This document shows positions 1,369-37,367 of a DNA stretch of 64,000 nt, piece by piece. Made by a program: the position numbers and the translations under genes. This DNA comes from Myxococcales bacterium. Lineage in GTDB: Bacteria; Myxococcota; Myxococcia; Myxococcales; JAKAPL01. The stretch's first letter is position 1, and each line of letters begins with the position of its first letter. Under the pieces are notes generated by a model. The model had not been told where the DNA came from and did no database searches. It saw only the letters and a list, made by a program, of their open reading frames with translations. The DNA is taken from positions 1 through 64,000 of the forward strand of contig JAKAPL010000009.1 of NCBI GenBank assembly GCA_021807105.1. Direction: 5' to 3'.

Positions 1369-1989
1369 GGGCTCTCCGGGGAGGCGGGGACGGACATCCG
1401 AATCGTCTCGTGGTTACGGGCGGTTGCGCGCGATCTCGTCTCGGCCCTGGTGACGGACATCGGAGGGGCGAACGGGATGAGCGGACGGCCGGGTGCGCCG
1501 CGCGGCGGTGAGCGGCAGGGGAGAAGACGTTCGCCCCCACCGCTCCCCCGGGGATCGCGCGGGTATCTCCGAGTCCTTGCTGGCGAATCCGGTTGTCCGT
1601 CACCGCGTCCCCCGCGTCCCGGTTGCGCAGCAATGTCTTCGCGTCCGACACCTTCGTATTCGCCCACTGCCGGTTGAGCTGCTTGTACTCGTCCGCAAGC
1701 GCCTCGTAATCCAAAGGCAGGCATCCAACAAGCGTGTCGTAGCGCGGCCAAGCACCGCCGCAACCAAACGCGGCCAAGGGGCGCGGGCCGCGCTACGGGA
1801 TGGGGTGACGGACAGCAAGATTCGGGAGTCCCCTCCGGGCGTATCCGCGCGGGCGGCGCGCAGGCGGCGCGGGCCCCTCGCGAGGCGCGTCGAGATCGGA
1901 AAACCGCGCGTAACCACGGGCGGACAGGGGCTTCCGGGCGCCGGAGCACTCGGGCGGCCCGGCTCGGGCAGCGGAACGAAAGACGCCGC
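1369..1989. repeat. Gene-free stretch holding imperfect inverted repeats
   Basis: No convincing gene is seen in these 620 bases. A segment near 1408-1437 (GTGGTTACG...CGATCTCG) recurs inverted at about 1889-1917. The 11-mer GGTGACGGACA occurs at 1448, inverted near 1605, and again near 1803, each followed by similar sequence. The pieces look like diverged inverted copies of a repeat around a core at about 1620-1790. On the minus strand the core could encode a short peptide (residues such as EALADEYKQLNRQW) that I do not recognise. Bases 1740-1775 also match a segment at 33233-33269. Confidence 0.45.
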
Positions 1990-4206: not shown

Positions 4207-4923
4207 ATGACCGAGGAGAGCGGCAAGGGGATCGGGCCGGCCTTCCGGCGCTTCCTGACGGCGGTCGTCATCCTCGCGCTCGCCGCCGCGGTGGTCTGGC
4301 TCGCGAGCGAGCGCAACTCCCATCACTACTTCCTCCAGGCGGACGGGCGGCGGGTGACCGTCGGGCGCGGCTGGTTCGCGCCGGCTGGCCACGGCCCCTT
4401 CCGGCCGCGCGATCCCGCGCTCGCGCGGGCGTACCAGCCGTTCACGCTCCCCGAGGGGGTGGCGGGTCCGGCGGCGGACGGCGAGGAATTCGACGACCGC
4501 GGCGAGCTGGACCGGCGGCTGGGCGCCCTCCTGCTCGACTCGGCGAAGGCGCGCCTCGCGCGCGGGGACCCGCAGCGGCTCGCCCGAGGCATCGCCTACC
4601 TCGACCAGGCCGCGCGGCTCGAACAGCTCTCCTCGGACGAGCGCGGCCGCCTCTCGTCGCTCCGGTCCGAGGTCGCCTACTTCGAGGCCGCGGGCCGGAT
4701 CGAGGCGGGGCTCGCCGCGCTCCAGGAGGCGCGGAGGCTGCTCGAACAGGCGACCGCCGGCGATCCGGCGCACGCCCGCGCGGCGGCCGAGCTGCTCGAT
4801 CGTCTCGGCCCGGCGTTCGACGGCCTGTTGCGGGCGACGCGCGGCGCGGATCTCCCGCCGGCCGCGGCGCCGGCCGCGGTTTCACCGAGTCCGGTCCCGC
4901 CGGAGGCGCGCGACGGCGGTTGA
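4207..4923 (+). CDS. Membrane-anchored protein of unknown function
   Basis: I do not recognise this 238-residue protein. It has one clear membrane segment (about residues 16-34, LTAVVILALAAAVVWLA) after a short basic N-terminus, suggesting a cytoplasmic N-terminus with the rest outside. The middle (about 95-200) is Ala/Leu/Arg-rich and probably helical, with TPR-like character (LARGIAYLDQAARLEQL, RRLLEQATAGDPAHARA). The C-terminus is Pro/Ala-rich. It begins three bases after hpt and shortly precedes a methyltransferase-like gene, so it is probably co-transcribed. Confidence 0.6.
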   Translation: MTEESGKGIGPAFRRFLTAVVILALAAAVVWLASERNSHHYFLQADGRRVTVGRGWFAPAGHGPFRPRDPALARAYQPFTLPEGVAGPAADGEEFDDRGELDRRLGALLLDSAKARLARGDPQRLARGIAYLDQAARLEQLSSDERGRLSSLRSEVAYFEAAGRIEAGLAALQEARRLLEQATAGDPAHARAAAELLDRLGPAFDGLLRATRGADLPPAAAPAAVSPSPVPPEARDGG

Positions 4924-22079: not shown

Positions 22080-22262
22080 CCCCGTCTTACTCACGGTCCG
22101 GCTGCTGCGACGTCCGATCCCGCGCCTCCCGAAGGGGGGGCTTGCTACCCTTACCACGACATGGGGGGGGGCTGCTCGCTCCTCCCTCCTGCGGCGGGCT
22201 TCACGCCCGCCTCGTCGATCGTCGCTCTCGTTGACCCGGTGGGTGGTCCGGTGCAAAACCTG
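22080..22262 (+). mobile_element. Degenerate family B element
   Basis: Starts directly after the kinase TAA stop with CCCCGTCTTACTCACGG, then follows the family B interior closely for about 150 bases. The right end, near 22262, is badly decayed (GGTCCGGTGCAAAACC against the expected GGACCGTGAATAAGACG), so the boundary is approximate. Confidence 0.6.
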
Positions 22263-22568
22263 CCGGCCGGCGCACCCATGGGCGCTCGCGGAGAGCGGTG
22301 TTGCGAGCTCCCACGAGGGTGCCCGCCCGTGAATCGGCGAACCGGAGCCGTGGACGGGGCTTCGAGGATCCTGTCCTCCTCGTCGTATCGTCGAGCGTTC
22401 GAGCGGCCGGCCGCCTTTGCGCCAAGAGAGGCGTAGAGTCTAGGGTTTCGCAGCTCGTTTTCACCGTTGAAATTGTCGCGGGGCGACGGCGCGGGAGTGC
22501 GTCGTTTCACCCATGGCGAGGCCGCCGCCTCGTTGCTTCGTGAAAACAAACGGCGGGTCCAAGAGATG
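22263..22568. other. Gene-free stretch upstream of the respiratory module
   Basis: About 300 bases with no credible gene. The base composition is less extreme than in the genes around it and AT-richer patches appear near 22450-22480 and 22540. It leads into the GG-N10-GC promoter and could contain upstream activator sites, but I could not identify a repeated operator. Confidence 0.35.
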
Positions 22569-22582
22569 GGCATGGCCGTTGC
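22569..22582 (+). promoter_or_regulatory. Sigma-54-type promoter of the first cytochrome gene
   Basis: GGGCATGGCCGTTGCAT contains GG (22569-22570) and GC (22581-22582) exactly ten bases apart, matching the -24/-12 consensus TGGCAC-N5-TTGC at most positions. Transcription would begin near 22594, 33 bases before the ATG. An almost identical site precedes the paralogous gene at 26072. Confidence 0.6.
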
Positions 22583-22626
22583 ATAGTGGGATGTCCGGCT
22601 GCTCACTCTTGCCAAGGAGATCACTC

Positions 22627-24513: not shown

Positions 24514-24682
24514 GAGGCTCGGGTCCAATGGGTGCCATCGCGAGAGCGCCGAGACCGAGGCGAGACGGGCGCCCGAGAGGTGAGCAGCGGAATCGTAGTC
24601 TTTTCAGTACGTTTTGCAGCGAAGCGACGAGGCCGCCCGTCGCATCGGCTTTCGCAGTAGGCAGCCATTTAACCCCAGCCTC
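24514..24682 (-). mobile_element. Family A MITE-like element inside the respiratory operon
   Basis: 169 bp flanked by CTAG (24510-24513 and 24683-24686), ends GAGGCT and AGCCTC, in opposite orientation to the copies at 19256 and 39257. Its interior matches them, including the segments equivalent to GACGGGCGGCCTCGTCGC and GGGCGCCCGTCTCGCC. The left CTAG carries the stop codon of the ferredoxin-like gene and the right end lies 14 bases before the NrfD start. Confidence 0.8.
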
Positions 24683-24696
24683 CTAGAGCCTCGACC

Positions 24697-31929: not shown

Positions 31930-32121
31930 TTACGCGGCCTTGACGACCTTGCCGGCCTTGATGCAGCGCGTGCAGACGCGGACGCGAGCGACACGGCCGT
32001 CGATCTTCGCCTTGACTCGCTGGAGGTTCGGCAGGGTGCGTCTCTTGGTCTTGTTGTTCGCGTGGCTGACGCGGTTGCCGACGAGCGGCCTCTTGCCGCA
32101 GATGTGACAGACCCAGGCCAT
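31930..32121 (-). CDS. rpmB: 50S ribosomal protein L28 (zinc-binding form)
   Basis: 63 residues: [16 protein letters not shown], then [10 protein letters not shown] and a C-terminal [13 protein letters not shown]. The CxxC pairs mark the zinc-binding C+ form of bL28. The start at 32121 is preceded by GGAGGAG; a longer in-frame extension upstream is not conserved. About 1.2 kb of gene-free DNA lies on its 5' side. Confidence 0.95.
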
Positions 32122-32436
32122 GTGGAACTCCTCCGCGGCCTTCGCCGCGCTGCCGAAGGAGCGCCTCCCATACCGCAAGTCACGCCCGGAGGCAAGCCTC
32201 GATCGCGAGCCTGGCGTCGGGCGTCGCTCGGGTCGTGCCGGTCTCGCCGGCTGTGCGGTCGCCGAGAAGGCGTTCCCGCTCCCGCTCTCCAGCGTGCTTC
32301 GCGAAGCAGCCTCGGCGTTGCGGCCAATCGGCCTGCCGCGCAGCGGTCTTGAGTTCGACAGACTTGGGCCTCGGGAGATAGCGGGGGCTCATCGTCTCCA
32401 ACGGAGGAGCGCCGCAGGCGAGCGATTCCGAGAGGG
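32122..32436. other. Gene-free stretch between rpmB and the 21-bp repeat array
   Basis: Contains the rpmB ribosome site and presumably its promoter. A minus-strand frame is open here, but its peptide (segments such as [15 protein letters not shown]) is not one I recognise, and it has no ribosome site. Nothing else is supported. Confidence 0.35.
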
Positions 32437-33193
32437 TGGCGGCGAATCGGCGCCTGTTGGCGGCGCACGGCCACCAAGGCCCCGTTCGGCTTCGCGTGGC
32501 AGATGGCGGCAGCACGGCGGCAGGCGACCTCCCCGGGGAGGAGGGCGACGGCGGTCGCCGGCAAGGCGGGGAGCGCCGCCCATCTGGCGGCGCTTGGGAG
32601 GAGATTGGCGCTGCTCGCGCGGCGGATGGCGGCGCGAGGGGCTGTCGTCCCGCCATCGAGAGCGAGAATGGCGGCGGCGTGACGGATTTACGTTCACTCA
32701 TGGCGGTTTATGGCGGCATCATCTCCCATGGTGGCGTCGACTGTTGCGATGGGACCGCCGCTCGTGTCGCTGCTGGCGTCGCAGTGGCGGCCGATGGCGG
32801 TTACACGCGGGCTGACTTTGCATAGCTTCGGAATGAAACCGCCATCCGTGGCGTCGCTGTCGCCACCGTGGCGTCTATCGCCGCCATTCGCGCGCCACCA
32901 ACCGCCACGCTCGGCGCACCAACCGCCATTCTCGTTCTATGTGGCGTCGCATTGCGGAGAGCGACCGCCACCATGGCGTCAATATGCTGGGATCTGCCGG
33001 ATGGAAACGCCATGCTCGCTCCAGTCGCCGCCAATCTGGAGGAGAATGGCGCCAGGATCGCCGGCGGCGGCGCCATCGTCGTGACAACCGCTTCGATCGT
33101 CATCGCAGCCGCCGCCAACGTGGCGGTCTTAGAGCGGGATCGACGGGGATCTGTCGCTATCGTGGCGGTTTCTGGCGGTTGTCCGGACGATCG
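32437..33193. repeat. Degenerate 21-bp tandem repeat (minisatellite), about 36 units
   Basis: Non-coding DNA packed with TGGCG and its complement CGCCA. From 32585 to 33193 I find 18 TGGCG and 13 CGCCA. Measured from 32585 in steps of 21, 11 TGGCG fall at offset 0, 6 at offset 11 (one more at 12), and 12 of 13 CGCCA at offset 3. When written as 29 rows of 21 bases, the dinucleotide CG occupies columns 4-5 in 24 rows. Some units show a full dyad, for example CGCCA-TCCG-TGGCG in the row at 32837. Upstream, to about 32437, the motif continues with a one-base phase shift. Unit sequence is strongly diverged while the period is kept. Confidence 0.85.
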
Positions 33194-33232
33194 GGTCTCT
33201 TGCGTGGGTCCAGCCGCCGCCGCCCGAGGCCA

Positions 33233-33269
33233 TAGCGCGGCCAAGCAGCGCCGCAACGCAACGCGGTCC
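33233..33269. repeat. Dispersed 36-bp repeat shared with 1740-1775
   Basis: TAGCGCGGCCAAGCA then CGCCGCAAC and CGCGG match bases 1740-1775 in the same orientation with a handful of differences and one indel. Both copies lie in gene-free DNA a little upstream of a TAGGAT promoter. Confidence 0.5.
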
Positions 33270-33313
33270 ATGGGGTTCGACCCTCTTCCGGACCGGCTCC
33301 TCGCGGGAGCGCG

Positions 33314-33351: not shown

Positions 33352-33888
<537 letters not shown>

Positions 33889-33891
33889 TCG

Positions 33892-35250
33892 GTGCCGGCG
33901 TCGTCTGTCTCCTCGCAAGGGCTGACCCCGCGGCAGGTCGTCGCGGAGTTGGACCGTTACATCATCGGCCAGAAGGCGGCCAAGCGCGCGGTGGCGATCG
34001 CCCTGCGCAACCGCTGGCGGCGGCAGAAGGTCGATCCGTCCCTGCGCGACGAGATCGTCCCGAAGAACATCATCCTGATCGGGCCGACCGGGGTGGGGAA
34101 GACGGAGATCGCGCGCCGGCTCGCCCGCCTCGCCGAGGCGCCGTTCATCAAGGTCGAGGCGGGCAAGTACACCGAGGTCGGCTACGTCGGGCGGGACGTG
34201 GACTCGATGATCCGCGACCTCACGGCCATCGCCGTCCAGCTCGTGCGCGACGAGGCGACGGAGAGGGTGCAGGGTCGGGCCCGGGATCTGGCCGAGGAGC
34301 GGCTGCTCGACGTGCTCTTCCCGCCGGTCGCCGGACCCGGCTTCAGCGCGACGCCGGGGACCTCGAGCGAGAGCCGGGAGAAGCTGCGGGCGATGCTCCA
34401 CGCGGGGACGCTCGACGGCCGGGAGGTCGAGCTGGACCTGCCCGAGAGGTCTCCCTCGCAGTTCTTCCAGCTCTTCAGCGGCGCGGGCATGGAGGAGATG
34501 GGGGTCAACCTGGGGGAGATGCTCGGCGGCACCCCCTTCGGCAAGCGGATGAAGCGGCGGCGGATGCCGGTCCCCGACGCGCTCGACCTCCTGCGGCAGG
34601 AGGAGGCGGGCAAGCTGATCGACATGGACCAGGTGACGCGCGAGGCCGTCCAGCGGACCGAGCAGTCGGGGATCGTCTTCATCGACGAGATCGACAAGAT
34701 CGCCGGCAAGGAGGGGGCGGGCGGCCCGGACGTGTCGCGCGAGGGGGTGCAGCGGGACCTCCTCCCGATCGTGGAGGGCTCGACGGTCACGACCAAGTAC
34801 GGGCCGGTGCGGACCGACCACATCCTCTTCATCGCGTCGGGCGCCTTCCACGTGGCGAGGCCGTCGGACCTGATCCCCGAGCTGCAGGGGCGCTTCCCCA
34901 TCCGCGTCGAGATGGATTCGCTCGGCAGCGCGGATTTCGTCCGGATCCTGACCGAGCCCCAGAACGCGCTCACCCGGCAGTACGCGGCGCTGCTCGCCAC
35001 CGAGGGGATCGAGCTGTCCTTCGCGCCGGACGCGGTCGCGGAGATCGCGCGCATCGCCCAGACGATCAACGATCGGACGGAAAACATCGGGGCGCGGCGG
35101 CTCCACACGATCCTGGAGCGGCTGCTCGACGAGATCGCCTTCGACGCGGACGAGCGGAAGGACAAACGGATCGCCGTGGACGCGGGCTACGTGCGCGCCC
35201 AGCTCCAGCCGCTCGTCGAGGACGAGGACCTCTCCCGGTACATTCTATGA
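33892..35250 (+). CDS. hslU: ATP-dependent protease ATPase subunit HslU
   Basis: AAA+ unfoldase that feeds substrates to HslV. Walker [16 protein letters not shown] and Walker [12 protein letters not shown] are intact, with the I-domain between them (about residues 110-245), the [17 protein letters not shown] sensor 2 region, and the C-terminal SRYIL tail that docks into HslV. 452 residues, GTG start. Its stop overlaps an ATG that could start a longer ArgD. Confidence 0.97.
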
Positions 35251-37151: not shown

Positions 37152-37367
37152 GCCCGTCTGATTCACGGTACGGCGCAGCGAGGCGTTTTTAGACCGCGAG
37201 CCGAGAAGGGCAAGCGAGAGCGACGACCGACGAGGCGTCGCGTAAAGCACCTCGCGAGGAGGTACGGAGCGAGCACACCCCCCCATGTCGTCGTAGGGGT
37301 GGCAAGCCCCCCCTTCGGGAGGCGCGGGATCGGACGACGCAGCAGCCGGGCCGTGAATAAGACGGGC
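37152..37367 (-). mobile_element. Family B MITE-like element between two convergent genes
   Basis: 216 bp, inverted relative to the copy at 19394, with terminal inverted repeats GCCCGTCTGATTCACGG and the complement of GCCCGTCTTATTCACGG. It is flanked by TAA (stop of the acetyltransferase) on the left and TCA (complement of the mtnA TGA stop) on the right, filling the whole intergenic space. No coding capacity. Confidence 0.8.

Follow-up and report, generated by a model that had tools for sequence, protein, structure and literature searches.

What holds a 21-bp register in place between two genes? The question is raised by a gene-free region between rpmB and hslV in the window, i.e., the whole stretch of 64,000 nucleotides of Myxococcales DNA that was analysed. 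Its relatives, too, place the organism in this order. A preliminary description had recognised there a hidden 21-bp minisatellite with a palindromic unit and had offered as explanations selection on helical phasing for cooperative protein binding, a fossil heptapeptide gene, a nucleoid or segregation site, or a regulatory array for rpmB/hslVU.

Autocorrelation over positions 32400–33250 gave a peak at lag 21 (0.416, against 0.286 for 500 dinucleotide shuffles; z 8.3), accompanied by peaks at lags 42 (z 7.7) and 63 (z 4.9), which is the head-to-tail periodicity of a tandem repeat or minisatellite; an elevation at lag 3 (z 5.5) is due to runs of GGC. In the same interval, TGGCG occurs 21 times against 2.8 expected and CGCCA 13 times against 2.0 expected, amounting to an approximately seven-fold excess. 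From 32585 onwards, TGGCG occupies phases 14 and 4 mod 21 in 17 of 18 cases and CGCCA occupies phase 17 in 12 of 13, while the TGGCG before that position are poorly in register (phases 13, 13 and 17). The two TGGCG phases lie one helical turn apart, i.e., in the helical phasing known from parS and iteron arrays, and the first and last in-register TGGCG (32585 and 33173) are separated by 588 bp, or 28 x 21. The period, the motif excess, the exact phase counts and span, and the near-absence of drift had all been claimed before and are confirmed. Tandem Repeats Finder recovered fragments of the array only (32839–32934), and the palindromic character attributed to the unit is reduced to some weak dyad symmetry (dyad excess 0.058). 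The strand bias between the two arms (Table 1) is a clearer feature of this array than unit palindromy.

Table 1. Parts and neighbours of the 21-bp array, in window coordinates.
Feature	Position	Strand	Basis or remark
Element, intergenic array in 21-bp register	~32483–33212	none	gene-free; homology to paralogs C124:70695-71417 and C129:37845-38609
Left end, not strictly in register; short inverted repeats, perfect or nearly so, e.g., CCTCCCCGGGGAGG, GCGCCGCCCATCTGGCGGCGC	32483–32584		kept in 3/3 copies
Left arm, TGGCG-rich 21-bp units (10 TGGCG, 1 CGCCA), phases 14 and 4 mod 21	32585–32830	+	
Insertion point of 84 bases (4 x 21) in the C129 paralog, GGAGGAGAATGGCGG-type units	32612		paralog alignment
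Right arm, CGCCA-rich 21-bp units (12 CGCCA, 6 TGGCG), small CGCCA-N3/4-TGGCG inverted repeats	32831–33130	-	
Single 21-bp unit missing from the C124 paralog (approximate)	32870–32890		paralog alignment
Right end, last in-register TGGCG (33163, 33173)	33131–33212		in the C129 copy, cut by a different dispersed repeat
rpmB, ribosomal protein L28, left neighbour, reads away from element	31930–32121	-	ORF, named from sequence
hslV, right neighbour	33352–33888	+	
hslU	33892–35250	+	named from sequence

A DNA search of 30 genomes yielded two further copies of the element, both in its own genome (G000, contigs C124 and C129; Table 1), and no copy of significant length in the other genomes; plasmid and phage collections held no match. 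The paralogs are 75–80% identical to the window element along the whole stretch, and their homology places its limits at ~32483–33212 instead of the 32437–33193 first proposed, a stretch that is gene-free as had been stated. Relative to the window element, the C129 copy is longer by 84 bp (4 x 21) and the C124 copy shorter by 21 bp, i.e., copy number changes by whole units as in a tandem repeat; the further gaps are one of 1 bp and one of 6 bp, the latter close to the end of the C129 copy. On both sides, the C124 copy is flanked by a MITE-like repeat with the ends CCGTCTTATTCACGGT / ACCGTGAAYAAGACGG (copies at 4440–4640 and 5440–5650 of L009, G000:C124:66000-76000); with short flanks masked, array-flanking dispersed repeats were found only at the array C124d. 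A separate dispersed repeat of ~65 bp (74–88% identical) adjoins the right side of the window element at 33233–33298, with other copies on G000 contigs C92, C71, C59, C57 and C29 and at window 1740–1781.

The preliminary description had missed that this element is one of many 21-bp arrays with different units. A periodicity scan covered 794 kb of the 3.76 Mb of its own genome, and arrays were classified with a gene caller trained with GC3/GC2 that recovers hslV, hslU and groEL. The period was 21n in 18 of 21 strong intergenic arrays and in one of nine coding arrays. By extrapolation, the genome is estimated to hold roughly 85 intergenic arrays, a figure which may be somewhat high because contigs C124, C129 and C18 were picked as array carriers. 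Of the intergenic regions 300 bp or longer, 16%, making up 27% of the bases, carry the 21/42/63 signal, compared with ~1% for any other period. Samples being as small as 120–200 kb for some genomes, the density of 21n arrays per Mb was ~23 in the own genome, 15 in G001 (same genus), 16 in G002 (same family) and 6 in G010 (another family), and the samples of G008, G013, G063 and G003 contained none. Searching genome-wide for a pattern of three TGGCG spaced by 21 bp proved too unspecific for GC-rich genomes and gave mainly coding-repeat matches.

Array lengths range roughly from 400 to 1100 bp. Unit sequences differ from family to family, several families having paralog pairs at other loci, and a motif common to the families was not found beyond chance (3/40 permutations reach the observed value); therefore, the property that the arrays share is their period. 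The arrays as a whole show no separate direct periodicity of 10–11 bp. Palindromic units were considered as a universal feature and rejected, since palindromy is significant in only a few families. In G001, 21-bp arrays with unrelated units lie upstream of yajQ (L317 2206-2583) and groEL (L325 429-533), both of which also have upstream 21-bp arrays in the own genome; such keeping of position at two of three loci is not significant because 16–23% of long intergenic regions carry arrays. In another G001 array (L305 865-1220, G001:C160), near-perfect palindromes CATACCGGCCGGTATG alternate in a 42-bp higher-order unit.

Other repeats are present as well. The other strong intergenic period is 85, represented in both genera by non-coding tandem arrays at L207 4684-5019 (G000:C2) and L231 1-399 (G002:C20). 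The window holds at 405–1293 a period-147 tandem repeat (five or six copies) that is probably coding, and at 22080–22626, 24514–24696, 37152–37367 and 39142–39505 members of dispersed intergenic families of ~150–180 bp with many loci. Repeats with at least three other copies cover ~26% of the sampled non-array intergenic bases.

The way in which paralogous arrays have diverged bears on how the register is kept. Seven paralog comparisons together comprise 726 substitutions, three non-21n indels and eight indels that are multiples of 21 (exactly 21, 42 or 84 being among them); three of the seven share one family and are, thus, not independent. In independent pairs, two non-21n indels occur per 405 substitutions, against 101 per 790 in 33 independent control pairs of other intergenic repeats of the own genome, aligned and trimmed as the arrays were. 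Per substitution, non-21n indels are ~26 times rarer in arrays than in these controls (P 5e-15), a ratio that is approximate because the controls, picked by BLAST identity, include families with frequent internal deletions. Such a deficit is what selection against rotation-changing indels would leave, and other causes may contribute to it. In the window family, there is one non-21n indel in 139 substitutions against the C124 copy and none in 162 against the C129 copy.

Substitutions, too, follow the register. In all seven paralog comparisons, the mismatch rate varies with phase (P 3e-3 to 9e-19), with its minimum at those register columns that are best conserved inside the array. In young arrays this is not proof of selection, because an exchange of unit variants alone puts mismatches on polymorphic columns; the window family, being old, is fairly free of this artefact and is the only such family. 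Across its three copies, the best conserved phases are 4–9 and 14–20, i.e., the motif positions, and the least conserved are 0–3 and 10–13. The comparison is biased if it is conditioned on an intact motif and was, therefore, redone with sites at which two of the copies are identical. At these sites, the remaining copy retains motif bases at 96.5–98.1% and other bases at 79–86% (P 2e-4 to 2e-6); motif pentamers are retained at 83–90%, compared with 29–58% for non-motif pentamers of equal G+C. This speaks for purifying selection on the motif of the window family. Taken as mutation patterns, these data indicate that selection acts on both the 21-bp spacing and the repeated motif. As regards the suggested selection on helical phasing, register and motif, hence, do show its signs, whereas the binding of a protein is what we infer from them.

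The account that we tentatively favour, at somewhat less than an even chance, is that selection acts on the helical register and the motifs of a clade-specific class of dispersed satellites, which would most likely serve as a DNA platform for cooperative protein binding. The element is one member of a dispersed intergenic class that is confined mainly to one Myxococcales family and has been copied to new loci, with the 21-bp register, two turns of B-DNA, as the class invariant. A putative DNA-binding protein would assemble cooperatively along one helix face of the arrays and recognise each family by a motif particular to it, which in the window family would be TGGCGG/CCGCCA. A non-21n indel would rotate downstream sites off the bound face and be selected against, and gain or loss of a whole 21-bp unit would be tolerated. 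Nucleoid architecture, local gene control or protection of intergenic DNA would be candidate functions, and one that serves many loci is preferred to one confined to hslVU. Several observations count against the platform. The families lack a common motif and, therefore, either numerous proteins or a single one of low sequence specificity would have to be involved. The missing direct signal at 10–11 bp speaks against the simplest model with one site per turn, which predicts it; palindromic units are significant in few families only; and 21 bp are also seven codons, with few stops in 31 of 32 sampled arrays.

The main rival is a selfish satellite in concerted evolution, shaped by mutation. Slippage, unequal crossing-over, and transposition or copying would make and spread arrays that have no host function, and the register would persist because indels vanish as units are lost or converted. 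We consider this possible, if rather unlikely. It agrees with the restriction of the arrays to a clade in which they come and go (the own genome has an array between ribF and pilB that G001 and G002 lack), with the ending of homology near the array ends in paralog sets, with the unrelated units of different families, and with the observed gains and losses of whole units. What it explains poorly is the old window family, whose units are too diverged for routine homogenisation and yet have hardly any non-21n indels, and whose motif is more conserved than the spacers. Moreover, a mutational origin alone leaves unexplained why the intergenic periods are 21n only.

An improbable alternative to the protein-binding platform is a structured RNA, in which the array is transcribed and arms of opposite strand pair in a 21-nt register that is kept for this reason. 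In the window and C124a/C77 families, the left and the right arm do lie on opposite strands, and single-sequence folds of the + strand are more stable than shuffles in two copies (z about -4). However, both strands of the window-family copies fold well, as for any inverted repeat, and the three-copy consensus fold, based on as few as three sequences, has an unfavourable covariation term (+8.85 kcal/mol) and many broken pairs. At gathering score, Rfam has no hit in the window, and inverted arms are lacking from most families, which are direct arrays.

A coding or fossil coding heptapeptide repeat, for which 21 bp would stand for seven codons, is very unlikely as an origin of the class and is already contradicted for the window element. 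It has in its favour that the period is a multiple of three, that non-21n indels are depleted, that one frame is open in 29 of 32 sampled arrays against 18.8 expected under a crude null moving substitutions to random columns, and that two array ORFs (L190, L197) were called as genes. The three window-family copies, however, have stops in all six frames, and their identity is flat across the codon (0.62, 0.64 and 0.69 by position mod 3); hence, the idea of a fossil heptapeptide gene fails for this element. Neither G001 nor G002 has a heptad-repeat gene at this locus, and coding arrays are not enriched for 21n. The open-frame excess is not taken as evidence for coding, given the way in which that null places substitutions and given that stops are low in all frames alike and not in one; the codon scores of the arrays are mostly below gene level, as judged by a poorly trained gene model. 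Equally remote is a regulatory array specific to the divergent rpmB–hslV promoters, as had also been proposed: the array does fill that intergenic region, but its paralogs and the other arrays adjoin unrelated genes in divergent, convergent and co-directional intergenic regions, and no array precedes hslV in G001 or G002, so that the element is not tied to hslVU.

As a rule, a common sequence is what defines bacterial intergenic repeats; the dozens of loci described for this one clade have a spacing in common instead. If a binding protein is found, the arrays would be a bacterial example of chromatin organisation based on helical register, together with ready natural test sites; if there is none, they would be an unusually clean case of a mutational process imposing a fixed 21-bp ruler. 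A bolder proposal, which we regard as speculative and unlikely in its full extent, is that a myxobacterial lineage organises a sizeable share of its intergenic DNA as sequence-diverse arrays, constituting a chromosomal scaffold defined by spacing, with a selected two-turn register that would be read by one low-specificity architectural protein or a set of proteins. A search of the open-access literature for 21-bp intergenic arrays in myxobacteria returned nothing relevant, which is weak evidence of novelty.

Among known systems, bacterial intergenic minisatellites and VNTRs resemble the arrays in having short head-to-tail intergenic units that are gained and lost as a whole. They differ in that the arrays described here occupy many loci with unrelated units of one period, keep their register when old, and conserve motif phases between paralogs. 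Iteron and partition arrays present repeated sites in helical register and in both orientations as a platform for cooperative binding, and they are usually single loci beside their own par genes. By analogy, the present arrays may offer the helically phased sites in both orientations of an iteron or parS/parC-type platform; unlike those, they occur at dozens of loci, with no adjacent par genes seen at the sampled ones. With REP/BIME elements and other dispersed intergenic palindromic repeats, they have in common that they are dispersed, non-coding, copied in families and partly of dyad symmetry. However, REP/BIME are defined by a common sequence and a hairpin, whereas the families described here share a period and have no short palindrome common to their copies. 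Finally, the A-tract signals with helical period (10–11 bp; PMC516772, PMC3940949) are likewise a periodicity tied to the helix and strong in intergenic regions; these consist of weak A/T tracts, in contrast to the arrays, which are G+C-rich tandem units with a strict period of 21.
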